From: Dysidea avara
Lineage: Eukaryota > Porifera > Demospongiae > Dictyoceratida > Dysideidae
Direction of reading: 5' to 3'
DNA: 64,000 nucleotides
NCBI RefSeq assembly: GCF_963678975.1
Contig: NC_089285.1
Coordinates: forward strand, 6,000,694 to 6,064,693
A program made the position numbers and the translations under genes. Of the stretch, positions 1,934-44,135 are shown one piece after another (within the stretch, counting starts at the first letter, position 1; each line of letters opens with the position of its first letter). The notes beneath the pieces are model-generated. The model was not told the DNA's origin. It was given only the letters and a program-made list of their open reading frames with translations, and ran no database searches.

Positions 1934-2655
1934 TGTGACTGTCTCTGGGAAAACCGGTCTTATCGCCCATTTAAAAGTATCGAGAAACGTCGGTTTTAAA
2001 CATTCAGTGTGTTGTAGCTGGCCAATGGTGGTAGGTACGCATACAAAATTTTCACACGTTTCACAGCAATTTCTTACCTTCCTGATCATCCACTGAAGAA
2101 GTAATCAGCAGCTAAGTTTCCCGCCATTTTAGATAGTTTTTAAACCGAGGTTGTCTGTATCAGGCGAGATCCAGAAGGGTGGGAGGCGGGGGCCCTGGAA
2201 GGCAGGCGAGATCCAGAAGGGTGGGAGGCGGGGGCCCTGGAAGGCGGGCGAGATCCAGAAGGGTGGGAGGCGGGGGCCCTGGAAGGCGGGCAAGATGGTG
2301 TTCAAAAATTGAAAAGAAACGTGCTGGGATGAACTGGGCCAAGTTATAGGCCACTCAGGGCTCAGAACTGGCTAAAATGAAAGGAAATTTACAGCACAAG
2401 TCATTGTCCAACACCACGGAGCTGTACAGCCACACACAGCCATCACCTGGTTGGCCAGGGCTCCATCAAGACCCCAGATCACTCGTACGGCTCGCCACTG
2501 TGCTCTGAAAAAGCAGCCAGCAAAAGCAGACCACTTCACTCTGGTCGACTGTGGCAGTGAAACTTGATAGTGCATTCATTAAGCTTTGTGTTTGTGTGAA
2601 AAAATCAAACTTCCTGTCTTGGGCGATAAGAACGGTTTTCGTAGATCCAGTCACA
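1934..2655. mobile_element. 722-bp TA-inserting miniature element inside E1
   Basis: Absent from both E2 arms, where the flanks join directly (29622 region). The ends are inverted and imperfect over about 35 bp: TGTGACTGTCTCTGGGAAAA at the left, and the right end reversed reads TGTGACTGGATCTACGAAAA. TA dinucleotides at 1932-1933 and 2656-2657 are the target duplication, since the empty site in E2 has a single TA. This fits a non-autonomous Tc1/mariner-type element (inference from the TA target). A related decayed end is at about 5738-5765. Confidence 0.85.
2161..2290. repeat. Tandem repeat, 3 x 42 bp, GC-rich
   Basis: Three near-identical 42-bp units starting at 2161, 2203 and 2245, each containing GGGAGGCGGGGGCCCTGGAA, inside the TA-inserted element. 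The proline/leucine-rich peptide readable on the minus strand follows from the tandem repeat. Confidence 0.9.
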
Positions 2656-2950
2656 TATAATCTCAACGTGTGTATCTACTTATCCTACTTACCTTTAGTC
2701 CGTTTGAGCAGTTTTCTCTGTGTGCTGACCATTCCTTGGGGGTAGACTTGAGTTCTGGACAGAGCCTGGTACCACTACATCACGTGCGTACTGAATGAAC
2801 GCAAAATTTTTAATTATTTGCCATGTCAGGAACAGAGGAAATTAACGCCTCGACGTGTTAACAAACCAGGTCAGCAGTGTTTATAAATTCTTAAACTTTG
2901 AGCATTGAAACTTAAGCAATTGGAATTTATTGCCTAATGTCCTAGTGACC

Positions 2951-3015
2951 AAACGGTAAAGTAAATAGGCGCTTCGCGCGCGCAGCGCGCGAAGCGCCTA
3001 TTTACTTTACCGTTT
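2951..3015. repeat. Terminal hairpin of E1
   Basis: Perfect or near-perfect 31-bp stem with a ~3-nt loop. The stem runs from AAACGGTAAAGTAAATAGG into a CG-rich apex (GCGCTTCGCGCGC). The same hairpin stands at 13338-13402 and 29925-29989, and a diverged form at about 43945-44010. Confidence 0.93.
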
Positions 3016-3474
3016 GTAATATTAGACTTATAATTGGCCCCAAAATACACGGATCTGAGAGACTGTGAGAATTCATTTAAGAGCCGTGTTTAATTTAAAT
3101 GGCTACAGGGTCATGGTATTTCAATTAAGGCTACACCAAACTTTTCATCGTAAATCTTTTTTGCACCGTGTTATACTTAGTATTGCTGTATGTTGTCACT
3201 CCTGCAAGAAAGAACGGTTCAAGCTGATTGCATGGAATTTAAACAGTAAATCAAATAAATCCTATACAGATAGATGTTCAAGTTATAATGAAAAATAGCC
3301 TAACGTCCTCACAGCTAATTGAATTATGAATCAACTTTGCATGGCTCCAAGACATTACCGCTTCATTAAAGCATTTCTGCACCTTGCAACTTTTCCATCA
3401 ACAATGTATGACATGGCCAATCCCCTCACCCACCAATGAAATTGCAATTGGGCTGAATATCATTTGATCATAAC

Positions 3475-12688: not shown

Positions 12689-12888
12689 NNNNNNNNNNNN
12701 NNNNNNNNNNNNNNNNNNNNNNNNNNNNNNNNNNNNNNNNNNNNNNNNNNNNNNNNNNNNNNNNNNNNNNNNNNNNNNNNNNNNNNNNNNNNNNNNNNNN
12801 NNNNNNNNNNNNNNNNNNNNNNNNNNNNNNNNNNNNNNNNNNNNNNNNNNNNNNNNNNNNNNNNNNNNNNNNNNNNNNNNNNNNNNNN
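12689..12888. other. Assembly gap of 200 N
   Basis: Exactly 200 N, probably a placeholder; the real distance is unknown. Reading frames drawn across it are meaningless. Confidence 0.99.
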
Positions 12889-13337
12889 ACTTTTAGTACC
12901 TCTCGGGAATAGTTCATATGCCAGTCATTTTTAGCATCTGCCCTATCAAACACAATTAATATTGGGATAGCAAATTAATTAAACCTTGTAAAAGTATCTC
13001 TTTATCAATAATAACACTTGTCTGTTCAACTTCACCCATATATGAAGCAGTATAATATTTCTTGCTGATCACATCACTCTTATCCCTTTTACTTGGTTAA
13101 TCCTGTTCTGTCACATTTAAATTTACAGGTAACTTCCTCTTTTAAGCTTTACCAATTTTTTAATCTTTCTGCTTCACTTCTAAATGCCAATCTGTAAGGT
13201 ATCTCCAGGTCGAGTTCCTTGTTCTAGGTCAGATGATTAATGCTTAGAACCAGTAATTGTACAGCTAATAATTATTTCTGCCTACTAGAGACTTTTCGAT
13301 GCGTGTATTTTGGGGCCAATTATAAGTCTAATATTAC

Positions 13338-13402
13338 AAACGGTAAAGTAAATAGGCGCTTCGCGCGCTGCGCGCGCGAAGCGCCTATTTACTTTACCGT
13401 TT
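13338..13402. repeat. Outer terminal hairpin, left end of E2
   Basis: 31-bp stem with CG-rich apex, about 35 bp inside the end. Same sequence as at 2951-3015 and 29925-29989. Confidence 0.93.
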
Positions 13403-13420
13403 GGTCACTAGGACATTAGG

Positions 13421-13446
13421 CAATTGGAATTCGCAAATTCCAATTG
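13421..13446. repeat. Inner terminal hairpin, left end of E2
   Basis: CAATTGGAATT-CGCA-AATTCCAATTG, 18 bp inside the outer hairpin. Its mirror copy is at 29881-29906, with equivalents at about 39655, 40224 and 43895. Confidence 0.9.
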
Positions 13447-15759
13447 CATAAGTTTCAATGCTCAAAGTTTAAGAATTTATAAACACTGCTGACCTGGTTT
13501 GTTAACACGTCGAGGCGTTAATTTCCTCTGTTCCTGACATGGCAAATAATTAAAATTTTAGCGTTCATTCAGTACGCACGTGGTGTAGTGGTACCAGGCT
13601 CTGTCCAGAACTCAAGTCTACCCCCAAGGAGTGGTCAGCACACAGAGAAAACTGCTCAAACGGACTAAAGGTAAGTAGAATAAGTAGATACACACGTTGA
13701 GATTATATTGTTTTGAAAGGCTAGTGTGGTACCAGACTACTTTCTCTAAATAAAATGCACCAGTTGGCGTGGCTATGGTAATCTTGCATAGACCAGACAG
13801 AATTTTTTCTTAGTGTGTGAGTGCGGAATAAGTGGCCAATCAGCACCCACCATAGAGCTGGTGAAACGTTACACAGAAATTCTGTGGGAAGTGTACTAGA
13901 TCACTTATTCCCCACCCACACACAAAAGAAGAAAGTCGGTCTGATCTTAGCTATATTATAGTGAGTGATGTTGAAATGGGCTCCTTCACCCCATTGGTAT
14001 TCCCTACTTTTTGGGGGAATGGGAGGTGCGGCTAGTATTGCTTACAAGAGGTTAGCATTTCTGCCTGCTGCTTAGAAAGACCAGTAGTGTAGTGTCCTGG
14101 ATTAGATGCTCCACCAGTTTTTCTTTACTGTAACCCTGCCAGTCCAGTTACTATCGCAGCACTTGACCTTGCAATGTGTGAGGGTCAGGTGCATGCTTCC
14201 ATCACATGTACTTCAATTGCTGTTTCTTGTTTATTTACTTGTTATATTTCAAAAAAAAAAAAAATCGCGCAAAAAAAAAATCCAGTAGTATTGGCTACCA
14301 GCTTTTTTTAAAATGTGGGTTGTGGAGTAGAAAGAGCAATAAATGCATTGTATACAAACTGGTTAAACCTCTACCTTATCCCATCACCATTGTATGGCAT
14401 GCATATGGGTTTAAGTCTCCACAAAGGACTCGACTGTATCGTTATTAGAAGTAGACAGCATGTCTATACTACCTACTGTCAAGGAGGTGTCACTCTAATG
14501 TATCCTGTATTGTACGATCTTCATCCTTTAAACAAGGGATTTTGGCATAGGACAGTACAAGCATCATTTCAAGTAGCACTTTTACATTCAATAATTGTAA
14601 CGTGATCTTGGAAACCTACCTTTTTGGTTTATTTTCTGTTTAATAGGTTAAATGAGGTATTGGGTGCTTATCTATCTTGTGTTAAAATTTTAGTTTAATA
14701 TCCTGAGACGTGGCTGGTTTACTGTCCGGTACATTACAAACTAGTGCATTAAGGTTTGTGAGTGATTAAGGGTGACAAGTGGTGTTTACCAATAATTCCA
14801 TACATGGTCTGATATAATCACCGAAGCTCCTAGGAAAAAGAAGCTTTGGGTGGGAAACTTTACAGCACGAAAGTTTAATAGTTGCTTTTATCAAAACAAA
14901 TTGTTGAAATTTTCATTTAAGTTTTTGCTGTATGTAGAAGTCAAGGGTTAAGGTACACTCTTGGTAAGAAATCCAACTTTTGTGGATCGTCAACCACCCT
15001 GAGATCATAAGGCAGGCAATGTACTAGAGCAGACGCCTTATTCCTTATACAGACACCTTATAAATTTGTTTTTCATGGCCAACATCAAAGGTGGGGGTAT
15101 TACTACTAGGTATAGCCTAAATATTTCTTTTCAAGGTTAACCCTTAAATCTGCTTTTCGAAAATGCATGTTTACACAATATGGACTCGCATGGTGACACT
15201 AGGTGAGATAACTTAATTCTTACAGCCTTACAAACACACATAGATTTAAAAAGTGTGTCCACTGGGCTACTTGGAGGAGCACTGTGACTACAGTGGCTTA
15301 CTTATTATGAAGTGATGAACATCGACATGTCAAGTCTCCGTGTTTCATAATTCTTGCCACATGCTTACTTTTGATTGTGGGATTACTCACGTAAATCATA
15401 TATTGCCTGATACAAAAATTCACGACAAGTCCTATGGAAGTCACTGCAAGGTGATAGGAGCAACTACCATCGAGTCATCGACCATTTTATAGAGGTATGT
15501 AATAAAAAGTTTGCATGTTCCCTACCAAAAAGTTATTTTCATGGCCTCACCATGTAACATTAGGGTAAAACTCTAGGTATCATTTTAATCCTTGTTCCAT
15601 CACAAGTAGAATAATGTAAATCGCATAGCCATAGAATGGATGCTTCGAAAGTTACAGCGCTCTATGCAAGGCATGTGTATTTATTAAGTTTAAATCCAGT
15701 TTTCTTGATTATGCAGGTTTAAGGGTTAAGTGTTGCTAAAGGTAAAATTTTCACAAATA

Positions 15760-16330
15760 CAGTGGAACCTGTCTATAATGGTCACCTTGGGACCAGATAT
15801 ATCTGGCCTTTATATACAGGTGGCTGTTATAGAGAAAACCTGCATAAGGTGGTCAGCAACATTTTAGTGGCTATGACTGTTATAAATGAGTAATTATTAT
15901 AAAGAGGCTCGCGCCAACCACAATGTAGTAATATTTTAGTACAGAAACAGCAAGGTGAGCCTGTTATGGATGTTGGTTATAGCTATTGAATACGATTAAG
16001 CAATGAAGACTGATAGATTATATAGTATTTATTGAAAGGTAGGAAGTGGGATAATTGCCCGGCGCATTAATTGAAATGATGCCGTGGTGCCAGGAAATTT
16101 GCTTAACAAGCCACCATAAAAGGTAGCGACCGCTATACGAAGAAGAAAGTTATGTATACAGTGATTCATGGGCAAATTCTTGGTTGGCCGTTATACGCGT
16201 TAGACAGGTGACCGCTTAATGCAGACCACAATGCATACATTTGTATTGGAAAATACTTGGGACCTCGTGACCATGGCCGTTATACAAAGGTGACCGCTTA
16301 ATCCAGGTGACCGTAACACAGGTTCCACTG
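15760..16330. mobile_element. TA-flanked miniature element nested in left arm
   Basis: Ends CAGTGGAACCTGTCTATAAT and its inverse, flanked by TA (15758-15759 and 16331-16332). Contains several short repeats of the type GCGGTCACC/GGCCGTTATA. The end motif and TA target suggest a pogo/Tc1-mariner-type non-autonomous element (inference). The related copy at 55103-55835 is more diverged. Confidence 0.88.
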
Positions 16331-17679
16331 TACTACCCAAATGTATTACTCTCTATGGGAGGTCTAAATATTTCAAGGATAAAATTTTGCTGATACCCCC
16401 CCCCCCCCCCCCCCCCCCCAACACTGCACAATCAGCAAAAAAAAGTTTCCCCTTAAAATATTTAGGCTATACGGTATATGCAGTGTAATGCACTTGATTT
16501 ATTTTTTTGTAGCCAGATGATAGAGCGCTGGTATCACATACCCGAGGAAAATTCTAAGTGTAAGTTTAACTGTTAAATGAAAGTATGAATATACTCATTT
16601 GATAGTTGTTCTCCACACTACATAATGCCCTTGACTTCTCTACTACTCTAGATCTTTTGTGTCACAATTTCTATTTGTATATTGTATCATTGTCAAGTTT
16701 CATGGTAGTGAATTATTCTTCCCTAAGATTGGCCATGCATTGTGACATGTTTAGTGCATGCTTGTAAGTTTAAAGTTCACTCTCAGTGTGCTCCAGTACA
16801 AGTCTGTCCCGTCCAGTTATTTAATGAGCTTTATCCACAATTACATCATAGCACAAAAATGGCAATAAGAGTGGGGATTGTTTGTACAGATAGCCATTAG
16901 AAGGGATAACTTTTGAGATTTTCCTCGTTAAGAAAGTGAGAGAAATCTCTGGTAAGACTTGTTTGTTAACTATCTTTCTATGTAGAAGCATGCACAGTTG
17001 CTCTTCTCGAACACTCCAGATCTGGTTTTGAAAATAAAACCAGAGCTAGGTAAGTATCTAAAAGTGTGAAAATGCATTCCCCAACAGAATTTTCTCCTGC
17101 TGTCTTCATGGCAAACATCTCAAAAGCTTATCCCTTCCAATGGCTCTGTACAAAGTACCCCCACTTGTAATTGTGAATGAAACTCTTTTGGGACCTTTGA
17201 AATGTAGCCCACCTAACTGTGCTAGTGATGACGTGGTATAACAGGAAGAGTAAAATTAATGCTAGATGGCATGTTATGCACAGAAGTATCTTCTAAACTG
17301 TTTTATAGTTTAACTATCATGTTTTTCTCGCCAATCCTCTCAACAAAGCCTCAAAGCTGCTCTTCATTTTCATTCACGTTCGTAAGGGACATACACACTT
17401 TCAACTCAAAGGGATAAGCTATTCCTGGAAGTCTACAAGGCCTGTACCAATGTTTTTCAGTTATTAAATGCCTGTAAAACTTGAAGAGAAAGTAAATCAA
17501 AAAGTATAAGGAGAGTCGTGTCACCCATGTTTCAGCCTGCCAGAAAGAAATCACAAAGTTTACTCGTAACTGTTTATTACAAACTTCATTTCGCTTTTCT
17601 TACGTACAAGCTGCTTTTATCATTTAACGATTTTGCTCACGTAAGTGCGTATGGACCAGCATAGATAAGTAGATAGGCA

Positions 17680-17769
17680 TGCACACGCACACGCACACAC
17701 ACAGTGACCTACACACACTGCACACACACACACTGCACTACACACACACGCACACACACACACTGCACT

Positions 17770-17846
<77 letters not shown>

Positions 17847-18096
17847 ACACACTCATGCACACTACACACACACATACACATGCTACACACTACACAGACA
17901 CACAGACACACACACAGACACACACACACACACACACACTAATACACACATACTGCACTACACACAGAAACACACACACACACAAATACACACGTACTAC
18001 ACAAATACACACTACACCACACACGTTCTACACACTACACACAAATGCTACGCACTACAAAGAGACACACAGACACACACTGCACTACATACAGGT

Positions 18097-18183
<87 letters not shown>

Positions 18184-18420
18184 TCACCACACACATACTA
18201 CACACACACGTACACTGCACACACACACACACTCTACACACATACCTTACACACAGACTTTCTACATACTACACAGAGACACACACGCGCACACTACACT
18301 AAGGCATGCACACGAACACTACACGCACACTACACACATACCACACACTACACACACACATTACACACATACCCTACACATACATGCTACACACACACAC
18401 TACACACGCACACACCACAT
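17680..18420 (+). repeat. CA-rich block, left arm
   Basis: Long (CA)n tracts interspersed with repeats of CACTACACA type. The long His/Thr-rich frames it yields are repeat products, not genes. Confidence 0.95.
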
Positions 18421-19929
18421 ACGCTATAGTAGTGTCATGTAGTTTAGCAACAGTAGACACATGTAGTTATAATGTAATGCTGCTACATGTGTCTCTGTGT
18501 ATGTGATACATGGATACACGTGTCTCTCACTACATGTTTCTCTGTGTAGTGTCATGTACTATAGTAGTGTCTATAGTTTGCATACTGCAGTTTCACACCC
18601 ATCCCAGAGTCTAATTTTCATTAAATCTCTTTTTTACAGACATGCTACTGGACACCCAAGAATTACATGTTACTGCTGGTGAGTGTACTTATATGCTATA
18701 CACATTTATTGGGTTTGACAAATCCGACATGAAGCAAGGCCATTTGGTCTTTAGCAGCTTTTTGGTCTCATTCGAAACTCTGTGGAAGTGAAACAATATG
18801 CAGTCACTGTAACGGATTGCATTTTAAAATGTATATCCTACAGTATGATAATACTGTATAGTTCTGCAACCTCTCTCCATGAGACTTGGACAGTTCTCCT
18901 GTGGTTTATTGAAGCTCAAGCTCCTGAGTAGTGCACAGGCATCCCAGCTCTGGTTTACTGGGTGGCAAGCATTGTAGCTGTGCTTCACATGGCTCTGCTT
19001 TTTTTTTGCTTTGTTAGTGTGTGCATGTGCGTGTGTGCGTGTTGGATAATGTAGTCCAAAAGTATGTGTGTGCATGTGCTTTCTCCATTTTCCGTTTTGT
19101 TATATCATGTTCAACTCTAACTTTGTAGGTGTGCTATAAGAATCTGGAGAAGTATGTGTTATAGAGAAGACACCAAGGAACAAGATGGTCGATTCGAACC
19201 ATGCTAGACACAGCGTAGTGTTTCTCAATGTAAGCTACATTCTGTTCTGTGTTGCTGCTTATTATCATGTGTACTGCAGGTCATCAATACTCTTGAGAAC
19301 TGTTTCCTAATACTGTTAAAGGATATTGTGACAAACTTGACTTTTCACGTGTAATGTGTGCTATGAAATAGTGTTGTATAGTTCATTCAGAGCTTTGTTA
19401 AGAATTCCAATTTATACTTATGGTTTGTTACTGGGGTTTTGCATAATACGGAGCTACACCGTTCAAACTCTTGATAATGTATCCAATGATGACACTACTA
19501 CCTAAGATGACACTACTAGCTACTGTACACCATGTAGGGTGATATAAGGGTGTTGGAGTAGGTGGGACACCACTTTTGGCTGAATTATGCAAAAACAAAT
19601 TGCAAACTCAATCTTGATGAAACAAAAGGTAGAAACATGCGACTTGGTGTTTATTTATAATGGCAATTCAGGTTAACTTTCTCCGTATTGAGTGCCTCTA
19701 AATAATCATTGTTGTGTTTAGCTTTGTTTATGTGTCTCTGTAGCTACCTTGGAAACAGTCTTAAACTGTATTATGAAGGTGCTTATTGATCAGTGTATTA
19801 GGTCCCTATTACCTCTGAGATAGGATAACCTCCTTGTAACAGTAAAATATCAACAAACTTGCAATTGGTTGGTCCCAAAGTGTCTGTTAAATTAATATAA
19901 TATTAATTATATAGAGGTTATACTGTAAT

Positions 19930-22900
19930 GTCACTATTGCTGCCAAACATGACACCACTAGGACACACTGTAGAATGATAATGTCACTATATAGTTAGAC
20001 AACATGACACTATTATAGTTGCACACTGTAGTGTGATAATGTCACTATAACAATAGTTACCTAACATGACACTACTAGCTATGCACTGTTTGGTAATAAT
20101 GTCACTACATGACACTACTACTTACACACTGTAGGGTGATAATGTCACTACAAGACACTACTAGTTACACACTGTACCATAACACTACTAGTTACACACT
20201 GTAGGGTGATAATGTCACTACATGACACTACTAGTTACACACTGTAGCATAACACTACTAGTTACACACTGTAGCATAACACTACTAGCTACACACTGTA
20301 GCATAACACTACTAGTTACACACTGTAGGGTGATAATGTCACTACAAGACACTACTAGCTACACACTGTAGCATGATCGATGACACTACTAGTTACACAC
20401 TGTAGGGTGATAATGTCACTACAAGACACTACTAGCTACACACTGTAGCATAACACTACTAGTTACACACTGTAGGGTGATAATGTCACTACAAGACACT
20501 ACTAGCTACACACTGTAGCATGACACTACTAGTTACACACTGTAGGATGATGATGTCACTACATGACACTACTAGTTACAAACTGTAGGGTGATGATGTC
20601 ACTACAAGACACTACTAGCTACACACTGTAGCATAACACTACTAGTCACACACTGTAGGGTGATGATGTCACTACATGACACTACTAGTTACACACTGTA
20701 GGGTGATGATGTCACTACATGACACTACTAGTTACACACTGTAGGGAGATGATATCACTACAAGACAGTACTAGCTACACACTGTAGCATAACACTACTA
20801 GTTACACACTGTAGGTTGATGATGTCACTACAAGACACTACTAGTTACACACTGTAGCATGACACTACTAGTTACACACTGTAGGGTGATGATGCCACTA
20901 CATGACATTACTAGTTACACATTGTAGGGTGATGATGCCACTACATGACACTACTAGTTACACTATGTAGGGTGATAGTGTCACTACATGACACTACTAC
21001 TTACACACTGTATTGTAGGGTGATGATGTCACTACAAGACACAACTAGCTACACACTGTAGGGTGATGATGCCACTACATGACATTACTAGTTACACATT
21101 GTAGGGTGATGATGCCACTACATGACACTACTAGTTACACTATGTAGGGTGATAGTGTCACTACATGACACTACTACTTACACACTGTATTGTAGGGTGA
21201 TGATGTCACTACAAGACACAACTAGCTACGCACTGTGGCATGACACTACTAGTTACACACTGTAGGGTGACGATGTCACTACATGACACTAATAGTTACA
21301 CACTGTAGGGTGATGATGTCACCACAACACACTACTTGCTACACACTGTAGGGTGATGATGTCACTATATAGTTACGTATTCAACATATATGACACTAGT
21401 TATTGTGGCATGTTGGGCCATTACATCACCATACAGTGTGTAACTAGTATTAGCTGTATTGCCATGCTGTGAGATTATCACCCTACATTGTGTAGCTAGT
21501 AGTGTCATGTTGGGTAACTATAGTATAGTGACATCGTCACTCTACAGTGTGTAACTAGAGTGTTGTGTAGTTACATCATCACCCTATAGTTTGTAACTAG
21601 TAGTGTCATGTAGTGACATTATCACTCTACAGTGTGTAACTAGTAGTGTCATGTAGTGACATCATCGCACTACAGTGTGTAACTACTGAGTAGCGTCATG
21701 TAGTGACATCATCACCCTACAGTATGTAGCTAGTAGTATCAAATGGTGACATCATCACCCTACAGTGTGTAACTAGTAGTTTCATGTAGTAACATCATCA
21801 CCCTACAGTGTGTATAATAACTAGTAGTGTCATGTTGGGTAACTATTGTTATAGTGACATCATCACCCTACAGTGTGTAGCTAGTAGTGCCATGTATTGA
21901 CATCATCACTCTACAGCGTGTAGCTAGTAGTGTCATGTTGGGTAACTATAGTATAGTGAAATGATCACCCTACAGTGTGTAATTATTAGTGTCATGTAGT
22001 GACATCATCACCCTACAGTTTGTAACTAGTAGTGTCATGTAGTGACATCATCACCCTACAGTGTGTAACTAGTAGTGTTATGCTATAGTGTGTAGCTAGT
22101 AGTGTCATGTAGTGACATCATCACCCTACAGTGTGTAACTAGTAGTGTTATGCTACAGTGTGTAGCTAGTAGTGTCTTGTAGTGACATTATTATCCTACA
22201 GTGTGTAACTAGTAGTGTCATGCTACAGTGTGTAGCTAGTAGTGTCTTGTAGTGACATTATCACCCTACAGTGTGTAACTAGTAGTGTCATATATGCTAC
22301 AGTGTGTAGCTAGTAGTGTCTTGTAGTGACATTATCACCCTACAGTGTGTAACTAGTAGTGTCATGCTACAGTGTGTAGCTAGTAGTGTCTTGTAGTGAC
22401 ATCATCACCCTTCAGTGTGTAGGTAGTAGTGTCATGTAGTGACATTATCACCCTACAGTGTGTAACTAGTAGTGTTATGCTACAGTGTGTAACTAGTAGT
22501 GTCTTGTAGTGACATCATCACCCTACAGTGTGTAACTAGTAGTGTTATGCTACAGTGTGTAACTAGTAGTGTCTTGTAGTGACATTATCATCCTACAGTG
22601 TGTAAGTAGTAGTGTCATGTAGTGACATCATCACCCTACAGTGTGTAACTAGTAGTGTTATGCTACAGTGTGTAGCTAGTAGTGTCTTGTAGTGACATCA
22701 TCACCCTACAGTTTGTAACTAGTAGTGTCATGTAGTGACATCATCATCCTACAGTGTGTAACTAGTAGTGTCATGCTACAGTGTGTAGCTAGTAGTGTCT
22801 TGTAGTGACATTATCACCCTACAGTGTGTAACTAGTAGTGTTATGCTACAGTGTGTAGCTAGTAGTGTCTTGTAGTGACATTATCACCCTACAGTGTGTA

Positions 22901-23430
22901 ACTAGTAGTGTCATGCTACAGTATGTAGCTAGTAGTGTCTTGTAGTGACATCATCACCCTTCAGTGTGTAGGTAGTAGTGTCATGTAGTGACATTATATA
23001 TATCACCCTACAGTGTGTAACTAGTAGTGTTATGCTACAGTGTGTAACTAGTAGTGTCTTGTAGTGACATTATCACCCTACAGTGTGTAGCTAGTAGTGT
23101 CATGTAGTGACATTATTACCCTACAGTGTGTAAGTAGTAGTGTCATGTAGTGACATTATCACCCTACAGTGTGTAACTAGTAGTGTTATGGTACAGTGTG
23201 TAACTAGTAGTGTCTTGTAGTGACATTATCACCCTACAGTGTGTAAGTAGTAGTGTCATGTAGTGACATTATTACCAAACAGTACATAGCTAGTAGTGTC
23301 ATGTTAGGTAACTATTGTTATAGTGACATTATCACACTACAGTGTGCAACTATAATAGTGTCATGTTGGCTAACTATATAGTGACATTATCATTCTACAG
23401 TGTGTCCTAGTGGTGTCATGTTTGGCAGCA
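19930..23430. repeat. Central minisatellite of E2, orientation switch near 21420
   Basis: Built from two interleaved units: a long one of 43 bp (ACTAGTTACACACTGTAGGG, then TGATAATGTCACTACATGAC) and a short one of 27 bp (GTTACACACTGTAGCATAAC). From 19930 to about 21415 they read in this sense; from about 21430 to 23430 they read as the reverse complement. The left half is about 1.5 kb and the right half about 2.0 kb, so the halves have changed copy number independently. Every unit carries the palindrome ACTAGT or AGCT-containing variant. Confidence 0.95.
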
Positions 23431-24959
23431 ATAGTGACATTACAGTATAACCTCTATATAATTAATATTATATTAATTTAACAGACACTTTGGGACCAAC
23501 CAATTGCAGGTTTGTTGATATTTTACTGTTACAAGGAGGTTATCCTATCTCAGAGGTAATAGGGACCTAATACACTGATCAATAAGCACCTTCATAATAC
23601 AGTTTAAGACTGTTTCCAAGGTAGCTACAGAGACACATAAACAAAGCTAAACACAACAATGATTATTTAGAGGCACTCAATACGGAAAAAGTTAACCTGA
23701 ATTGCCATTATAAATAAACACCAAGTCGCATGTTTCTACCTTTTGTTTCATCAAGATTGAGTTTGCAATTTGTTTTTGCATAATTCAGCCAAAAGTGGTG
23801 TCCCACCTACTCCAACACCCTTATATCACCCTACATGGTGTACAGTAGCTAGTAGTGTCATCTTAGGTAGTAGTGTCATCATTGGGTACATTATCAAGAG
23901 TTTGAACGGTGTAGCTCCGTATTATGCAAAACCCCAGTAACAAACCATAAGTATAAATTGGAATTCTTAACAAAGCTCTGAATGAACTATACAACACTAT
24001 TTCATAGCACACATTACACGTGAAAAGTCAAGTTTGTCACAATATCCTTTAACAGTATTAGGAAACAGTTCTCAAGAGTATTGATGACCTGCAGTACACA
24101 TGATAATAAGCAGCAACACAGAACAGAATGTAGCTTACATTGAGAAACACTACGCTGTGTCTAGCATGGTTCGAATCGACCATCTTGTTCCTTGGTGTCT
24201 TCTCTATAACACATACTTCTCCAGATTCTTATAGCACACCTACAAAGTTAGAGTTGAACATGATATAACAAAACGGAAAATGGAGAAAGCACATGCACAA
24301 ACATACTTTTGGACTACATTATCCAACACGCACACACGCACATGCACACACTAACAAAGCAAAAAAAAAGCAGAGCCATGTGAAGCACAGCTACAATGCT
24401 TGCCACCCAGTAAACCAGAGCTGGGATGCCTGTGCACTACTCAGGAGCTTGAGCTTCAATAAACCACAGGAGAACTGTCCAAGTCTCATGGAGAGAGGTT
24501 GCAGAACTATACAGTATTATCATACTGTAGGATATACATTTTAAAATGCAATCCGTTACAGTGACTGTATATTGTTTCACTTCCACAGAGTTTCGAATGA
24601 GACCAAAAAGCTGCTAAAGACCAAATGGCCTTGCTTCATGTCGGATTTGTCAAACCCAATAAATGTGTATAGCATATAAGTACACTCACCAGCAGTAACA
24701 TGTAATTCTTGGGTGTCCAGTAGCATGTCTGTAAAAAAGAGATGTAATGAAAATTAGACTCTGGGATGGGTGTGAAACTGCAGTATGCAAACTATAGACA
24801 CTACTATAGTACATGACACTACACAGAGAAACATGTAGTGAGAGACACGTGTATCCATGTATCACATACACAGAGACACATGTAGCAGCATTACATTATG
24901 ACTACATGTGTCTCTGTGTACATGTGTCTACTGTTGCTAAACTACATGACACTACTATA

Positions 24960-25193
24960 GCGTGTGTGGTGTGTGCGTGTGTAGTGTGTGTGTGCAGCAT
25001 GTATGTGTAGGGTATGTGTGTAGTGTGTGGTATGTGTGTAGTGTGCGTGTGTGTGTAGTGTTCGTGTGCATGCCTTAGTGTAGTGTGCGCGTGTGTGTCT
25101 CTGTGTAGTATGTAGAAAGTCTGTGTGTAAGGTATGTGTGTAGAGTGTGTGTGTGTGTGCAGTGTACGTGTGTGTGTAGTATGTGTGTGGTGA

Positions 25194-25234
<41 letters not shown>

Positions 25235-25462
25235 TGTGTGCACCTGTATGTAGTGCAGTGTGTGTCTGTGTGTCTCTTTGTAGTGCGTAGCATTTGTGTG
25301 TAGTGTGTAGAGCGTGTGTGGTGTAGTGTGTATTTGTGTAGTATGTGTGTATGTGTGTATTTGTGTATGCAGTGTGTGTGTGTTTCTGTGTGTAGTGCAG
25401 TATGTGTGTGTGTGTGTGTGTGTCTGTGCTTGTGTGTGTCTGTGTAGTGTGTAGCATGTGTA

Positions 25463-25560
<98 letters not shown>

Positions 25561-25665
25561 TGTAGTGCAGTGTGTGTGTGTGTGCGTGTGTGTGTAGTGC
25601 AGTGTGTGTGTGTGCAGTGTGTGTGGGTCACTGTGTGTGTGCGTGTGTGTGTGTATGCCTATCTA
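24960..25665 (-). repeat. TG-rich block, right arm
   Basis: Mirror of 17680-18420 with different lengths of individual (TG)n tracts. Confidence 0.95.
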
Positions 25666-26997
25666 CTTATCTATGTTGGTCCATACGCACTTACGTAAGC
25701 AAAATCGTTAAATGATAAAAGCAGCTTGTACGTAAGAAAAGCGAAATGAAGTTTGTAATAAACAGTTACGAGTAAACTTTGTGATTTCTTTCTGGCAGGC
25801 TGAAACATGGGTGACACGACTCTTCTTAGACTTTTTGATTTACTTTCTCTTCAAGTTTTACAGGCATTTAATAACTGAAAAACATTGGTACAGGCCTTGT
25901 AGACTTCCAGGAATAGCTTATCCCTTTGAGTTGAAAGTGGGTATGTCCCTTACGAACGTGAATGAAAATGAAGAGCAGCTTTGAGGCTTTGTTGAGAGGA
26001 TTGGCGAGAAAAAACATGATAGTTAAACTATAAAACAGTTTAGAAGATACTTCTGTGCATAACATGCCATCTAGCATTAATTTTACTCTTACTGTTATAC
26101 CACGTCATCACTAGCACAGTTAGGTGGGCTACATTTCAAAGGTCCCAAAAGAGTTTCATTCACAATTACAAGTGGGGGTACTTTGTACAGAGCCATTGGA
26201 AGGGATAAGCTTTTGAGATGTTTGCCATGAAGACAGCAGGAGAAAATTCTGTTGGGGAATGCATTTTCACACTTTTAGATACTTACCTAGCTCTGGTTTT
26301 ATTTTTAAAACCAGATCTGGAGTGTTCGAGAAGAGCAACTGTGCATGCTTCTACATAGAAAGATAGTTAACAAACAAGTCTTACCAGAGATTTCTCTCAC
26401 TTTCTTAACGAGGAAAATCTCAAAAGTTATCCCTTTTAATGGCTATCTGTACAAACAATCCCCACTCTTATTGCCATTTTTGTGCTATGATGTAATTGTG
26501 GATAAAGCTCATTAAATAACTGGACGGGACAGACTTGTACTGGAGCACACTGAGAGTGAACTTTAAACTTACAAGCATGCACTAAACATGTCACAATGCA
26601 TGGCCAATCTTAGGGAAGAATAATTCACTACCATGAAACTTGACAATGATACAATATACAAATAGAAATTGTGACACAAAAGATCTAGAGTAGTAGAGAA
26701 GTCAAGGGCATTATGTAGTGTGGAGAACAACTATCAAATGAGTATATTCATACTTTCATTTAACAGTTAAACTTACACTTAGAATTTTCCTCGGGTATGT
26801 GATACCAGCGCTCTATCATCTGGCTACAAAAAAATAAATCAAGTGCATTACACTGCATATACCGTATAGCCTAAATATTTTAAGGGGAAACTTTTTTTTG
26901 CTGATTGTGCAGTGTTGGGGGGGGGGGGGGGGTATCAGCAAAATTTTATCCTTGAAATATTTAGACCTCCCATAGAGAGTAATACATTTGGGTAGTA

Positions 26998-27568
26998 CAG
27001 TGGAACCTGTGTTACGGTCACCTGGATTAAGCGGTCACCTTTGTATAACGGCCATGGTCACGAGGTCCCAAATATTTTCCAATACAAATGTATGCATTGT
27101 GGTCTGCATTAAGCGGTCACCTGTCTAACGCGTATAACGGCCAACCAAGAATTTGCCCATGAATCACTGTATACATAACTTTCTTCTTCGTATAGCGGTC
27201 GCTACCTTTTATGGTGGCTTGTTAAGCAAATTTCCTGGCACCACGGCATCATTTCAATTAATGCGCCGGGCAATTATCCCACTTCCTACCTTTCAATAAA
27301 TACTATATAATCTATCAGTCTTCATTGCTTAATCGTATTCAATAGCTATAACCAACATCCATAACAGGCTCACCTTGCTGTTTCTGTACTAAAATATTAC
27401 TACATTGTGGTTGGCGCGAGCCTCTTTATAATAATTACTCATTTATAACAGTCATAGCCACTAAAATGTTGCTGACCACCTTATGCAGGTTTTCTCTATA
27501 ACAGCCACCTGTATATAAAGGCCAGATATATCTGGTCCCAAGGTGACCATTATAGACAGGTTCCACTG
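26998..27568. mobile_element. TA-flanked miniature element nested in right arm
   Basis: Mirror copy of 15760-16330, with the same ends and TA flanks (26996-26997 and 27569-27570). Its presence at the same site in both arms means that the insertion predates the palindrome or was copied between arms. Confidence 0.88.
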
Positions 27569-29880
27569 TATTTGTGAAAATTTTACCTTTAGCAACACTT
27601 AACCCTTAAACCTGCATAATCAAGAAAACTGGATTTAAACTTAATAAATACACATGCCTTGCATAGAGCGCTGTAACTTTCGAAGCATCCATTCTATGGC
27701 TATGCGATTTACATTATTCTACTTGTGATGGAACAAGGATTAAAATGATACCTAGAGTTTTACCCTAATGTTACATGGTGAGGCCATGAAAATAACTTTT
27801 TGGTAGGGAACATGCAAACTTTTTATTACATACCTCTATAAAATGGTCGATGACTCGATGGTAGTTGCTCCTATCACCTTGCAGTGACTTCCATAGGACT
27901 TGTCGTGAATTTTTGTATCAGGCAATATATGATTTACGTGAGTAATCCCACAATCAAAAGTAAGCATGTGGCAAGAATTATGAAACACGGAGACTTGACA
28001 TGTCGATGTTCATCACTTCATAATAAGTAAGCCACTGTAGTCACAGTGCTCCTCCAAGTAGCCCAGTGGACACACTTTTTAAATCTATGTGTGTTTGTAA
28101 GGCTGTAAGAATTAAGTTATCTCACCTAGTGTCACCATGCGAGTCCATATTGTGTAAACATGCATTTTCGAAAAGCAGATTTAAGGGTTAACCTTGAAAA
28201 GAAATATTTAGGCTATACCTAGTAGTAATACCCCCACCTTTGATGTTGGCCATGAAAAACAAATTTATAAGGTGTCTGTATAAGGAATAAGGCGTCTGCT
28301 CTAGTACATTGCCTGCCTTATGATCTCAGGGTGGTTGACGATCCACAAAAGTTGGATTTCTTACCAAGAGTGTACCTTAACCCTTGACTTCTACATACAG
28401 CAAAAACTTAAATGAAAATTTCAACAATTTGTTTTGATAAAAGCAACTATTAAACTTTCGTGCTGTAAAGTTTCCCACCCAAAGCTTCTTTTTCCTAGGA
28501 GCTTCGGTGATTATATCAGACCATGTATGGAATTATTGGTAAACACCACTTGTCACCCTTAATCACTCACAAACCTTAATGCACTAGTTTGTAATGTACC
28601 GGACAGTAAACCAGCCACGTCTCAGGATATTAAACTAAAATTTTAACACAAGATAGATAAGCACCCAATACCTCATTTAACCTATTAAACAGAAAATAAA
28701 CCAAAAAGGTAGGTTTCCAAGATCACGTTACAATTATTGAATGTAAAAGTGCTACTTGAAATGATGCTTGTACTGTCCTATGCCAAAATCCCTTGTTTAA
28801 AGGATGAAGATCGTACAATACAGGATACATTAGAGTGACACCTCCTTGACAGTAGGTAGTATAGGCATGCTGTCTACTTCTAATAACGATACAGTCGAGT
28901 CCTTTGTGGAGACTTAAACCCATATGCATGCCATACAATGGTGATGGGATAAGGTAGAGGTTTAACCAGTTTGTATACAATGCATTTATTGCTCTTTCTA
29001 CTCCACAACCCACATTTTAAAATAAAAGCTGGTAGCCAATACTACTGGATTTTTTTTTTGCGCGATTTTTTTTTTTTTTGAAATATAATAAGTAAATAAA
29101 CAAGAAACAGCAATTGAAGTACATGCGATGGAAGCATGCACCTGACCCTCACACATTGCAAGGTCAAGTGCTGCGATAGTAACTGGACTGGCAGGGTTAC
29201 AGTAAAGAAAAACTGGTGGAGCATCTAATCCAGGACACTACACTGGTCTTTCTAAGCAGCAGGCAGAAATGCTAACCTCTTGTAAGCAATACTAGCCGCA
29301 CCTCCCATTCCCCCAAAAAGTAGGGAATACCAATGGGGTGAAGGAGCCCATTTCAACATCACTCACTATAATATAGCTAAGATCAGACCGACTTTCTTCT
29401 TTTGTGTGTGGGTGGGGAATAAGTGATCTAGTACACTTCCCACAGAATTTCTGTGTAACGTTTCACCAGCTCTATGGTGGGTGCTGATTGGCCACTTATT
29501 CCGCACTCACACACTAAGAAAAAATTCTGTCTGGTCTATGCAAGATTACCATAGCCACGCCAACTGGTGCATTTTATTTAGAGAAAGTAGTCTGGTACCA
29601 CACTAGCCTTTCAAAACAATATAATCTCAACGTGTGTATCTACTTATTCTACTTACCTTTAGTCCGTTTGAGCAGTTTTCTCTGTGTGCTGACCACTCCT
29701 TGGGGGTAGACTTGAGTTCTGGACAGAGCCTGGTACCACTACACCACGTGCGTACTGAATGAACGCTAAAATTTTAATTATTTGCCATGTCAGGAACAGA
29801 GGAAATTAACGCCTCGACGTGTTAACAAACCAGGTCAGCAGTGTTTATAAATTCTTAAACTTTGAGCATTGAAACTTATG

Positions 29881-29906
29881 CAATTGGAATTTGCGAATTC
29901 CAATTG
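29881..29906. repeat. Inner terminal hairpin, right end of E2
   Basis: CAATTGGAATT-TGCG-AATTCCAATTG. In E1 the corresponding site is deleted to one arm. Confidence 0.9.
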
Positions 29907-29924
29907 CCTAATGTCCTAGTGACC

Positions 29925-29989
29925 AAACGGTAAAGTAAATAGGCGCTTCGCGCGCGCAGCGCGCGAAGCGCCTATTTACTTTACCGTTT
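29925..29989. repeat. Outer terminal hairpin, right end of E2
   Basis: Same 31-bp stem as at the left end. Followed by 39 bp that end in AAAATACACGGATC. Confidence 0.93.
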
Positions 29990-30029
29990 GTAATATTAGA
30001 CTTATAATTGGCCCCAAAATACACGGATC

Positions 30030-30238
30030 GTATAATGCTGCAATAAAAAGTACTGAAACAAGCTGGATCGGATAGTACGTAATGTCCAAATACTGTAAAA
30101 CAATAAGAAGTGAATATCCCTACTGTGCTACACTCAATGCACAGTAGGGGTATTCACTTCTTATTGTTTTACAGTATTTGGACATTACGTACTACTCCGA
30201 TCCAGCTTGTTTCAGTACTTTTTATTGCAGCATTATAC
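30030..30238. mobile_element. Foldback element abutting the right end of E2
   Basis: Arms of about 98 bp (GTATAATGCTGCAATAAAAA mirrored at 30219-30238) around an ~10-bp loop, almost perfectly paired. It begins within 2 bp of the E2 end. A relative sharing AATAAAAAGTACTGAAACAA-type arms is at 35759-35976. Confidence 0.92.
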
Positions 30239-35700: not shown

Positions 35701-35758
35701 GATCGCCCCCACACCTTCGATGTCCCTAATATACAGTTCGATATGATACAAGTACACA

Positions 35759-36639: not shown

Positions 36640-39600
36640 AAACACAGCACACAGTTATGTATGCCTCCTATCTAGCTGACTGGGTCACCTGCACACTACT
36701 CAGGTGCTATGATTCAGCGTCTGCAAATTCTATTGGAGGTCAGGACTGGCACCCTACAAGAGGCTGTACTAAATATGACTGCTGAGTGAAGGTGTGGCAC
36801 CCAAAATCTCACCTGAATATCAACTCATTGCTTGGAACATGGGCAGTTGGGATCAGCAATATCCTTATAAATATAGCTGGTGGGCAAGTGGTTCAATTGT
36901 GCGTGCGTGTGTGGGTATGGTATGTAGAAGAATGAAAACATACTACAGTGTCAGAAAGAATCATTTTACAAATGATATAATTGGAATTGCTATTACACAA
37001 GGGGCCTACGAGGAGGCTAAATGTACTGCAACCCAAAGAAGCTACAATCAGATCATGGGATGCTAAGGTTTAAAAGATACCACATTTATGTACATTTACA
37101 GTTACCATTTCAGACATGTGTACCCAAATAAGTGATTCCTTACCAAAGTGATGTTCCTCTGTGATCTGTAGAGCCCACTACAGGTCCTCACAATCCCATG
37201 TGATCCAACTCTGCATGTTATCTTCAGCTAACGTCTGAGCCTGTATAAGAAATACGTGTCAACATGTTAGCACTGCTTTAGTAGGGGTCTAGGGGGTGTG
37301 ACAAGAAATTCCTATTAGGCAGGTCACTTCGTACACAAATGACACATTTAGGGATGCTGATTTAGAACGGTGACCCTACTACACATGTAAGGTACCACAA
37401 TGAGTGTTTCATTGTATGCATTACATAGTATTTACCACTATCCAACACATTACATGGCTTTACTTGTATTGCTAAAGATAAGTGCTAAATTATCTCACTT
37501 TGTTTGATTGACAAAATTGTTCTTGATACGAACACTAGGAAGCCCACACATAAAAAGCAAAGCCTAGAGTTGCTACACACAAGATCATTCCTTGACACTA
37601 GTTGATACCTTGAAAGCATAAATTATATTTAATCCCCTGAGATAGCCAATGCTGGCAAATACTCCTAGGACAGCGATAGTGTCTCATAGGGCAGAAGTCT
37701 AACAGGTGAGGGTGCAGGTACAAAAGGCTTGTGAGACATGAACATTTGGTTCTCAGTTACAGAGCCTGAAATTATGGCCAGACATCTGTCATTTTCTGAC
37801 CATTTCTGGCCAACGCCTGAACACCTTTATGAAATTTTAGTATGTCCGACTAAATAGCAGGACTTGTCAGATCATTTCCAAAACACAACTTCGGGCCCTG
37901 CATTTACATGGGTGGGCTGCTTTTCCAATGTCCAAAATTAAACATAGACATTTTTGCTTGAGCAACCACAACAGCATCAACTGGACATCACTGACACATG
38001 AGAATATGTCACGGTATACTTCCACCCATGTAAGCAAACTATTTTATTGTACAAACAGCCAGAGAGAGTACTCTATAAAACCTGTAGTAAAGTTACAGAC
38101 ACCATGAAGTGACAACAAACCAGACACGGGGCCAAGTACAATTAAGAGTTTTTAAGTAAAGTACTTTTGAATTTTCCAAGTACAAGTACTCCAGCGGCAA
38201 TCAAGAGAGTACTTAAGTACAAGTACATGCTGGAAGTACTTAAGCAAAGTACAAATACATTAAAGTTTTGCTATAGCAATATATATACTGTATTCAGTGT
38301 ATTGTAGTATGTAAGTGTGCCTAGGGGGTTGGTACTTTCAGGTTTTTGCCAACCATTCTCTCTCTTAAACTTGTAAAATGCACTGACTTAATCAGCAGCA
38401 TTGCTTTTGTTTGCCAGAATGCTATGACATCATTAATCATGACTACAAGATAGGGTACAAACTATGTACAATGTTAGCAGTATTTACACCCCTGTACAAG
38501 TACTTAGAAGTATTTTAAGTACTCAAGTCTCAAGTACATACAAGTACTTAGTAAAGTACTCGAGTATAAGTACAAGTACATTGGGGAAACTAAGAAAGTA
38601 TTTAAGTAAAGTACAAGTACTTTAAAATCTGTACTTGAGTATAAGTACTCGTGTACTTGGCCCCATGTCTGCTGAACAAACTACATATGTTTGAGGGGGT
38701 GTTTGGTGCCCCTGAGTAGCCGTACAGTACATCCACAGCACATGATCCTCAGGTAGACTGTACTGGAGCAGTGTGAGTAAACTTTGCTGCTCAGACAAAC
38801 ACATCAACACCAACAACTGGACATCACTGACACGTATGAAAATATGTCACACCACATTGCTAATCTCTGGTATAAATGATTGAATACTAACAATGATACA
38901 ATTTGGCCAGGGGTCAAGGGTATTGTGTAGTACTGTAGCATGGTGAACAGAGCCTATCAAAACTCATAAATTTATGATTGGGGGAATAAGGTATTGTATA
39001 ATACAGCTGTACATTGCATCATGTAACAATTTAGAAATGACGCTTGGCCTTTGCCAAACTGGAAATCCCTTGTTTGTCTCCTTTTTTTGACTGAGGACAA
39101 AAGATTACAGCACATATTGGAGTAACACCTCTGTGACAAGTAAAGATCCCTTGTAGAGTGCCACACTCAGTGATGGGAGAGTTTACATCAATTTAAATGC
39201 TCCTCTTACTACAAATCTAGCCCATGTTGTAAGAAAAAGCTGGTAAGCTAATATCACTGGATATCTCATTACAGGCAGTATAGTGATCCAGCCACGCTTG
39301 CCATACACTACACAAGTGGTGCGTTTTATTTAGAGAAAGTAGTCTAGTATTGTTTTAAAAACAATAATCTCAACTTGTTTACTTTTTGCTACTTACTTTC
39401 AATCCATTTACCTGTGTGTGCTGATCACTTCAGCTCATAGCGAATCGAGCCAGGTGGCCAGGGCCTACACACTGTCATGTGCAATAGTAATCTGCGAAAA
39501 ATTTTAATATTACTGCTGACGGGAAGAACTTGCTCAACGTGGCAACAAACAAGGTCAGCAGTTAAATGTTTCATTGTGCATCCTTTGTTCATTCTATCCA

Positions 39601-39785
39601 GTTAGGGTTGATTCACTCCTCTAGCAAAATCAATCAAACGGCTAGAATTTTGACAATTGGAATTCACCAATTCCAATGTACAAAAACCAAAATGGAAAAG
39701 AATAAGCGCTTGGCATGCTGCACGCGCCAAGCGCTCCGTTTTGATTATTATACATTGGAATGGCCTGAAAGTACACGGACCCGTA
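36640..39785 (+). mobile_element. Older, diverged copy E3 of the E2 right arm
   Basis: Recognisable blocks in right-arm order: CTGCACACTACTCAGG-type sequence (36690, compare 24435), CAATGATACAATTTGG and GTCAAGGGTATTGTGTAGT (38890-38930, compare 26643-26720), TCCCTTGTTTG...GTAACACCTC (39065-39130, compare 28790-28840), TTTTATTTAGAGAAAGTAGT (39325), CAACAAACAAGGTCAGCAG (39541), inner hairpin (39653), outer hairpin with GCGCTTGG apex (39700-39735) and the end GTACACGGACCC (39772-39783). Much shorter than the E2 arm and interrupted by 38121-38671. Confidence 0.65.
38121..38671. mobile_element. Miniature element with CAGACACGGGGCCAAGTAC ends
   Basis: Inverted ends CAGACACGGGGCCAAGTAC (left) and, reversed, CAGACATGGGGCCAAGTAC (right). 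The interior is full of AAGTACTT-type repeats. A target duplication is not clean. A fragment of the same family lies at 40378-40530. Flanked on both sides by an ACTGGACATCACTGACAC repeat (37988 and 38817). Confidence 0.8.
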
Positions 39786-39790
39786 TGCAG

Positions 39791-40290
39791 GCACACAAAT
39801 ACACACACAAAGTAGGCAAATAAGCATTTTGGTTACCATGTAGGTAATGCCTGCCCAGCTCCCACCTGTGCATTGTTTAGGTAGTGCAACAGAAATTCTA
39901 AGTACTGAGAATCCATAAGTGGTGTAGTAAAAATAGCCACTGGTAACATCCTACACAGACCCAGGAGGCATTATTTAGAATATGAATGGCCACACATCTT
40001 ATATTAAACTAGCTTAGGTTACTACTGTGACTATTAACTTACTTAGGCTTGAGAAAGGCAAACAGATACCTCGAGTAACACGATCGGCGGGCATTGTTTA
40101 GAAACGTGAACCAGCTCCGTAAATCTAAAAACTGCCAAACAAATGAACTCACTGCAGTAATAGTTCACCTTGTGAACATTTTTCAACATTGTGTAACAAC
40201 ACAGTTTAACTTCAAAAATACTGCAATTGGAATTCGCGAATTCCAATTACCTTAATCCTAAAAAGATTATGGTTGGCGGGAAAATACACA
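39791..40290 (+). mobile_element. Short element E4 with the same terminal module
   Basis: About 75-80% similar by eye to 43425-44045. It keeps the inner hairpin (CAATTGGAATT-CGCG-AATTCCAATT at 40224) and the end GGGAAAATACACAGACCC (40278-40295), but the outer hairpin is deleted. No recognisable inverse end on the left. Confidence 0.7.
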
Positions 40291-40296
40291 GACCCT

Positions 40297-43278: not shown

Positions 43279-44135
43279 GTTGTGCCCAGGTAAGTATTAT
43301 GGTTTGAAAAGCTGACAACGCATGCAAATATGCCTGAGAGGAGGGCAGGAAAACAATTTATTTGGAGTGGCCTTAGCAGCTGCACAATACTTACATTGAC
43401 CAAACTGTATTCATTGTAAGCACATATGCAAGCACACACACACACACACAGAGTAGGCAAATAAGCCTCTTGGTTGCCGTGTAGTAAATGCCTGCCTAGC
43501 TCCCACCTGTGTACTGCTTAGGTAGTACAACAGAAGTTGTAAGTACCCAGGATGTAGTAAAAATGTCCACTGATTTCCTACACAGAACCAGGAGGCGTTA
43601 TTTGGAATATGAATGGCTACACATCTTATATTAAACTAACTTAGGTTACTACTGTGACTATTAACTTACTAGGCTTGAGAAAGGCCAACAGAAACCTCAA
43701 GTAACACGATCACAGCGGCTTGTTTGTTTGTTATTGGCGGGCCACCATCTCCGTATTCTCCACGCAAAAATATAACCTGCCAAACAAATCAACTCACTGC
43801 AGTGATAGTTGGCGTTGTAATCATAATTGCTAATTTTCAAACATTTTATACCAGCATAGTTCAACATTTAAATTCTAGATAATAAAAATACTGCAATTGG
43901 GAATTCGTGAATTCCAATTGCCTTAATCCTAAAAATCAAAACTTATAGGTAATAGGCGCTTCGCGCGCTGCGCGCGCGAAGCGCCTGTTACCTTTAAGTT
44001 TTGATTATAAGGGTTACGGTTGGCGAGAAAATACACGGACCCAGGTGTAACACACCAACTCTTAAAGTGAAAGGTCAGTGGTTCAATTCCCACTGTAGGC
44101 AAGTACTTTTAGGAACATATTTTTAGGAAGCGCTT

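Follow-up and report, generated by a model that had tools for sequence, protein, structure and literature searches.

A 16.7-kb palindrome in the genome of the sponge Dysidea avara is very probably a copy of a non-autonomous foldback-type DNA transposon

What kind of DNA is a palindrome of 16.7 kb that has defined ends and no recognisable genes? The question is raised by a stretch of 64,000 nucleotides of the sponge Dysidea avara (hereafter the window; assembly GCF_963678975.1, contig NC_089285.1, C14:6000694–6064693), in which an initial annotation described two mirror-image arms of about 8.3 kb meeting in a minisatellite and offered two readings: an element, giant foldback or non-autonomous, that relies for its movement on an enzyme encoded elsewhere, or a pair of 8.3-kb units joined head to head. 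Comparison of the window with the whole assembly (550.8 Mb, 108 contigs) leads us to argue that this palindrome, here called A14, very probably belongs to a family of non-autonomous DNA transposons of foldback type, whose mobile unit is the whole palindrome and which probably move by means of an enzyme encoded elsewhere. The first of the two readings is supported by fixed ends, 6-bp target-site duplications, miniatures, relatives of 28–35 kb and the absence of a coding domain in 13298–17680; the second may describe how the palindrome first originated, but two other copies, B14 and F3, show the two-armed form being copied as a unit.

Aligned with itself by BLAST, the window gives a single dominant inverted match (13297–21369 against 30030–21952; 8,189 columns, 95.2% identity, 226 gap positions), which confirms the palindrome as real. 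The exact limits are 13298 and 30029 (16,732 bp); fixed outer ends had been correctly recognised, but the 13304 and 30028 first assigned to them lie six bases and one base inside the true ones. From outside to inside, an arm consists of the terminus, hairpin 1, hairpin 2, non-repetitive DNA, a CA-repeat block, more non-repetitive DNA and the minisatellite (Table 1). Measured in 500-base bins, the arms are 89.8–98.6% identical in the bins holding CA tract and minisatellite, and 99.4–100% identical in the other ten. The features by which foldback elements are recognised are found here: inverted repeats fill most of the element, and tandem repeats (the CA block and the 27/43-base minisatellite) lie inside it.

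Folded as single-stranded DNA, the left terminus of A14 forms both hairpins at −57.4 kcal/mol (z = −13.0), and none of 200 shuffled sequences is equally stable, so that the double-hairpin end proposed from the sequence by eye is real. Among the 16 outer stem pairs of hairpin 1, families 1 and 2 differ by six double compensatory changes and no one-sided change, with pairing intact, and a diverged end elsewhere in the window (43892–44041) differs from family 1 in its outer stem pairs by five double and two one-sided changes; such compensatory changes fit selection for the hairpin. Family 2 (C7:12706279, in which hairpin 2 is short) and the diverged window end begin with 20 bases much like those of A14, followed by the same pair of hairpins built from other stem sequences; the terminus is, judged from the sequences, older than the palindrome. 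Additionally, the loop of hairpin 1 was seen in one orientation at 28 of 38 ends examined and flipped at two (the left end of B14 and C7:12664903), the remaining eight being variants; these orientations are reminiscent of the flip and flop forms of terminal hairpins.

That this terminus independently ends other copies, which the initial annotation had suggested from one further end (its E1), holds many times over, genome-wide. A 29-base terminal pattern with up to three mismatches occurs at 20 forward and 20 reverse sites (reversed control, 0), and the first 18 terminal bases with up to one mismatch at 43 sites (control, 0). E1 itself is the right end of B14, a second two-armed copy, although it ends at window position 3055 and not 3056. 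Facing ends form 13 pairs spaced 10.7–22.5 kb, one facing pair spans just 138 bp, and miniature relatives with the same ends measure 95–143 bp (95 bp for the one on C15). The analysis covered ten long-armed copies, namely A14 and nine others compared with one another; undetermined bases number 10,443 in D12, which is mostly undetermined, 2,500 in I1 and 200 each in G2 and J5. The C10 copy is palindromic in the part read, K2 (10.7 kb, with short repeats) has lost most of one half, and in the C4 copy some 35 bases at the right end agree with the family, beside a different interior. A probe from the inner arm gave 33 matches of at least 94% among 40 scored, which make up 12 two-armed copies, eight one-armed copies and the C4 copy. 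The initial annotation had named copies that run past or stop short of the hairpin module as a refuting observation; four scored matches miss the terminus (C1:4662421, C7:12726831, C4:15765621 and C10:9619221), the first two of them being copies broken in or beside hairpin 1. The copies are alike enough to suggest recent activity of the family. Two further loci may be mentioned here: on C12 one right end is present together with its flank at both 9637648 and 9645160, a distance of 7.5 kb, close to undetermined bases and probably through duplication in the assembly, and two ends at C10:1717595 and 1752559 have about 13 flanking bases in common (attagtggtccta) and then diverge.

Target-site duplications point to insertion. 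When the 6 bases that flank each end are compared, 13 of 22 facing pairs agree completely, against none of 462 mismatched pairings. Within the family to which A14 belongs by its GATSC ends, a perfect 6-bp duplication is present in 7 of 14 pairs (6 of the 11 long-armed ones), the two-armed copies so flanked including those at C8 27.18 Mb, C3 11.08 Mb, C2 7.35 Mb, C6 12.36 Mb and C10 1.70 Mb; in a class with GGTCC ends it is present in 6 of 8 pairs, and a C3 pair of that class (134 bp) matches at 4 of 6 positions, or repeats CTGGGGG if an ambiguous terminal G is counted as flank. Since the duplicated sequences vary by site, insertion does not look site-specific. On these results we consider an immobile palindrome, produced by ordinary inverted segmental duplication or by fold-back in the assembly, highly improbable. 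Palindromes are difficult to assemble, eight copies are one-armed in the assembly and D12 has its 10,443 undetermined bases, all of which would suit an artefact; exact ends shared at dozens of places and the perfect 6-bp duplications nevertheless speak against an immobile sequence, as does an insert that lies in one arm only of B14 and F3, which read fold-back would not be expected to give. We reject an ordinary inverted duplication and, for the whole family, an assembly fold-back, an origin that we keep in view for A14 alone.

This insert, of 720 bp, occupies the same place in the right arm of B14 and the left arm of F3 (99.7% identity); elsewhere in the comparison, which took in 11 elements and 15 end loci, it is absent. 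The left arm of B14 resembles the right arm of F3 (on contigs C14 and C3, respectively) at 98.8–99.9% per kb and its right arm the left arm of F3 at 99.5–99.9%; arms within B14 and within F3 are 96.9–99.6% alike. Because the two copies share both the arm-specific differences and the one-arm insert, a two-armed parent with unequal arms was copied to another contig, in inverted orientation, and it was thus the two-armed form that was copied, as one unit. Within the insert lies a minisatellite of 42-base, GC-rich units; its ends are the inverted GTGACTG...CAGTCAC, and by eye it is a small transposon of another kind.

It is formally conceivable that the palindrome is instead re-formed from one arm at each insertion by fold-back replication, in which case the two arms would be identical at first and accumulate differences later, as retrotransposon long terminal repeats do. 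In agreement with this, the arms of G2, D12 (determined part) and A14 are nearly identical outside the repeats, and over the outer 1.36 kb the two arms of a copy (mates) resemble each other more than any other arm in 6 of 12 pairs (D12, G2, H6, I1, J5 and A14). Mates are not nearest relatives in the other six pairs (B14, F3, C13, E8, K2 and C10), however, and some pairs of this kind carry arm-specific insertions or deletions. Given that both the differences between arms and the one-arm insert survived copying in B14 and F3, re-formation is not obligatory, and with gene conversion to account for the remaining arm equality we regard it as unlikely. The even division of the 12 pairs therefore suggests, within a family copied as whole palindromes, that arms become equal in some lineages, for which gene conversion is the simplest cause.

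In six frames, the outer 4.4 kb of the arm (13298–17680; stop-to-stop pieces of at least 30 amino acids joined by X) has no Pfam match at E ≤ 0.1, and all open frames of at least 110 amino acids inside 13298–30029 are translations of the CA blocks; within these bounds the absence of recognisable genes is upheld. Frames of at least 150 amino acids in eleven elements are likewise CA-block translations, except for 151-residue frames in K2, F3, J5 and D12. K2 was considered as an autonomous copy and rejected: its middle, about 4.3 kb, is unmatched in other copies, and one frame there resembles a BEL/Pao gag by eye. We also reject a retrotransposon origin, there being no reverse transcriptase domain in 13298–17680 and the ends being inverted and not TG..CA, and an RNA family, as Rfam gave no match in the whole window at the gathering threshold. 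Descent from a protein-primed element of Polinton/Maverick type, in which snap-back of the displaced strand would make the palindrome, has in its favour that protein-primed replication is known to yield symmetrical defective genomes by snap-back and that 6-bp duplications agree with Polinton/Maverick. Yet the Polinton DNA polymerase family PF03175 has two matches in the genome, C14:1963154 and C14:387553, neither inside a paired-end interval, and the termini of the elements are GATC or GGTC against the AG...TC of Polintons; we thus argue against membership and consider such descent very unlikely. The frames at C14:387553 and C14:1963154 encode Polinton-type DNA polymerase B without stops, open over 2041 and 813 amino acids, respectively.

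A class of larger relatives is a candidate source of the enzyme. The looser terminal pattern GRTCCGTGTATTTTSNSGCC with up to two mismatches has at least 49 + 52 sites, compared with 3 + 3 in the control, and the terminal module may be far commoner than these counts, because a search with the family 2 end gave 1,175 first-look candidates, of which 40 were scored. Among the matches listed for GRTCCGTGTATTTTSNSGCC, pairs were chosen by eye, many other listed ends being unpaired or outside the choice; six facing pairs of GGTCC-type ends lie 27.9–35.5 kb apart, and all but one of these are flanked by perfect 6-bp duplications (ATCCTG, CACCCT, GCATGG, AATAAG and ATCCAG). A 150-base probe taken 3.0 kb inside the C1 element is matched at 100% in two others, once each and 2.97–2.99 kb from one end (40 of 44 candidates scored), and hence the three are alike and not palindromic at the probed place. 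The same probe matches window positions 40492–40601 at 86%, from which it follows that the sequence left of 44041 is an older relative; A14 may thus sit inside old copies of the 30-kb relatives, to judge by such matches. Pfam searches with 10 of the 36 stop-to-stop frames of at least 65 amino acids in window 30030–44041 gave nothing better than E 0.07. A protein kinase frame at 6708–7637 (310 amino acids, without a stop; 96% DNA match on C15) was considered as cargo of the class and rejected: none of the matches listed (40 of 79 candidates scored) falls in the six intervals, the closest being on C15. Known here from its ends and one probe place, the 28–35-kb class, or a relative of it, most likely encodes the enzyme.

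Several observations weigh against a palindrome mobile in this way and must be set beside the evidence for it. Seven of the 14 GATSC pairs have no perfect duplication (A14, B14, C13, I1, K2, C4 and J5); J5 matches at five of six positions, a score also reached by 3 of the 462 mismatched pairings, and the pairs with no flank match in the 22-pair table are A14, B14, C13, I1, K2, C4 and C11. Among these, B14, I1, K2, C4 and C11 have equal ends and yet no duplication, and the 95-bp C15 pair, a 23rd outside that table, matches by eye at three of six. Eight of the 20 copies holding the inner-arm probe are one-armed in the assembly, and half of the 12 pairs have mates that are not nearest relatives, as described above. 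No transposase is linked to the element ends, and the C1 probe finds three of the six pairs of the 28–35-kb class, with C6, C2 and C11 absent from its matches among the 40 of 44 candidates scored. Finally, compensatory stem changes could also arise without selection, if one half of a palindrome serves as template for the other.

The window copy is itself among the irregular ones, and there is in our judgement an even chance that A14 combines two ends from different insertion events, joined either by ectopic recombination or by an assembly join within near-identical arms. Its flanks, CTTTTC and GTATAA, agree at two of six positions; its left end reads GATG and its right end GATC, A14 and C13 being the only two of the 22 pairs that differ within the first 14 terminal bases, and both are without a duplication. 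As these irregularities coincide with an assembly gap of 200 bases that lies 409 bases beyond the left end, A14 may be a chimera or a mis-join. Of the eight copies with one arm, five belong to the nearest relatives of A14 and C13, which is what would be expected if the youngest and most equal palindromes collapse in assembly. A weak hint of mis-joining is that, read towards the element in each case, the flank at C2:2498595 (GTTATG) is the reverse complement of that at C13:3209582 (CATAAC); the arms at these two ends are identical over the outer 1.36 kb and differ in the fourth terminal base. For ectopic exchange there is a precedent in Galileo of Drosophila mojavensis, for which 12 chimeric copies with non-matching flanks are described in passages of PMC3573991. 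Conversely, A14 contains no undetermined base, its left flank has no other full-identity match in the assembly (two matches at 69%), and its arms are closest to each other (99.8% over the outer 1.36 kb), with C2_28625843 almost as close (99.6–99.7%). Judged from the positions of terminus matches, C14:5923226–6044734 and C14:6399917–6479577 are two paralogous stretches, and their left flanks are nearly identical; in the region of A14 and B14 the latter stretch lacks about 41.7 kb and therefore may hold empty sites.

Table 1. Features of the palindrome A14 and of its relatives. Positions are those of the window unless a contig is named.
Feature	Position	Strand	Remarks
Palindromic element A14	13298..30029	.	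GATGCGTGTATTTTGGGGCC at left end, inverted GATCCGTGTATTTTGGGGCC at right end
A14 left terminus	13298..13337	+	About 20 bases common to compared related families (some changes), then family-specific up to hairpin 1
A14 hairpin 1, left	13338..13402	+	Nearly perfect palindrome; stem preserved by compensatory change in related families
A14 hairpin 2, left	13420..13447	+	
A14 hairpin 1 of right terminus	29925..29989	-	
A14 left arm	13298..21369	+	From self-BLAST and arm identity bins
A14 right arm	21952..30029	-	From self-BLAST and arm identity bins
A14 left-arm CA-repeat block	17682..18424	+	
A14 right-arm CA-repeat block	24962..25654	-	Inverted counterpart of left block
Minisatellite core	20064..23422	.	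27- and 43-base units among others; orientation flips between about 21370 and 21525
B14 right end	1..3055	-	E1 of the initial annotation; full copy C14:5987023-6003748, 16,726 bp; no target-site duplication; hairpin 2 damaged
720-bp insertion in one B14 arm	1935..2654	.	Common only to one F3 arm among sequences compared
Assembly gap, 200 bases	12689..12888	.	409 bases from A14 left end
Older relative of the arm, terminus plus about 500 bases	39284..39781	-	64-65% identity
Terminus-like match	40275..40294	-	GGTCTGTGTATTTTCCCGCC; probably older relative
End of a diverged relative	43892..44041	-	Terminus GGTCCGTGTATTTTCTCGCC, both hairpins; stretch 3.4 kb inside resembles 30-kb elements (86%)
Duplication-flanked 28-35-kb elements	C1:31804973-31835661, C8:13317008-13347545, C8:24096888-24132349, C6:11944629-11974936, C2:23390744-23418681		GGTCC terminus

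We suggest the following mechanism. The mobile unit would be two arms of 7.5–9 kb meeting in a minisatellite, each beginning with the fixed 20-base terminus and its two hairpins. A DDE-type transposase supplied in trans would recognise the terminus, possibly together with the hairpins, and cut with a 6-bp stagger, the unit being inserted almost anywhere. In some lineages the arms may then be made equal again, by gene conversion or by mismatch repair in a self-folded single strand; where the ends of a copy are unequal or no duplication flanks it, as in A14, the cause would be exchange between copies, loss or an assembly join. It is possible, if doubtful, that the double-hairpin module marks an unrecognised superfamily of giant transposons, comprising non-palindromic, enzyme-coding elements of 28–35 kb, palindromes of 16 kb parasitic on them and miniatures of 95–143 bp, all with 6-bp duplications, and that the palindrome persists because the cycle of transposition or replication includes a folded single strand, a passage that requires the hairpins and re-equalises the arms.

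Among described elements, Tetris of the Drosophila virilis group, as presented in passages of PMC4079207, has non-coding inverted repeats with tandem repeats, of up to 1,735 bp, and 8–10-bp duplications, and the miniature DAIBAM shares its ends (PMC4079207). Tetris resembles the present family in being non-coding, in its long inverted repeats with internal tandem repeats and in having a miniature with common ends; the present family differs by its arms of about 8 kb, its 6-bp duplications and its double-hairpin terminus, of which those passages on Tetris make no mention. Galileo, of the P superfamily, is reported with repeats of up to 1.26 kb in D. mojavensis (passages of PMC3573991) and 7–8-bp duplications in Drosophila willistoni (passages of PMC4168063). 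Very long inverted repeats, two-repeat copies without a transposase and chimeric copies with non-matching flanks are points of likeness (PMC4168063, PMC3573991), whereas a P-type transposase and 7–8-bp duplications set Galileo apart from a family with 6-bp duplications and no linked transposase. Tm1, a Mutator/Foldback family of root-knot nematodes treated in passages of PMC3169594, likewise includes miniatures and, as a group apart, members that carry a transposase; its inverted repeats are composite and vary in length, but its duplications are of 9 bp and not 6 bp. Eukaryotic superfamilies with 6-bp duplications include, in the passages of PMC10045372, Polinton, IS3EU and GingerRoot; the last two agree in duplication length and differ in their ends, which are TA..TA in IS3EU and TA..TA or TG..CA in GingerRoot (PMC10045372), as against GATC..GATC or GGTC..GACC here. 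The family thus fits no compared superfamily on all features tested and is structurally a foldback transposon, with arms several times longer than those given in the passages on Tetris (1.7 kb) and Galileo (1.26 kb). Searches of the open-licence literature listed Galileo, Tetris, Tm1 and unrelated work, and no described giant palindromic transposon was among the papers listed, which does not show its absence from print.

The window holds other features of separate interest. An open frame of 678 amino acids at 58915–60948, with a BED finger and a hAT dimerisation domain, is possibly an intact hAT transposase, and a reverse transcriptase frame (PF00078) at 9751–10482 is LINE-like by eye. Tandem repeats include 100 perfect CAG repeats at 46326–46625 and a 29-base repeat at 54019–54476 (15.8 copies, 98% alike).

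Finally, long palindromes are generally considered unstable. A dispersed family that has arms of about 8 kb and has travelled as whole palindromes would offer a natural series on how palindromes of 16 kb are copied, homogenised and tolerated. Given that its ends are common with those of the 28–35-kb class, the enzyme that moves it is to be sought there, and exchange between the palindromic copies may rearrange chromosomes.

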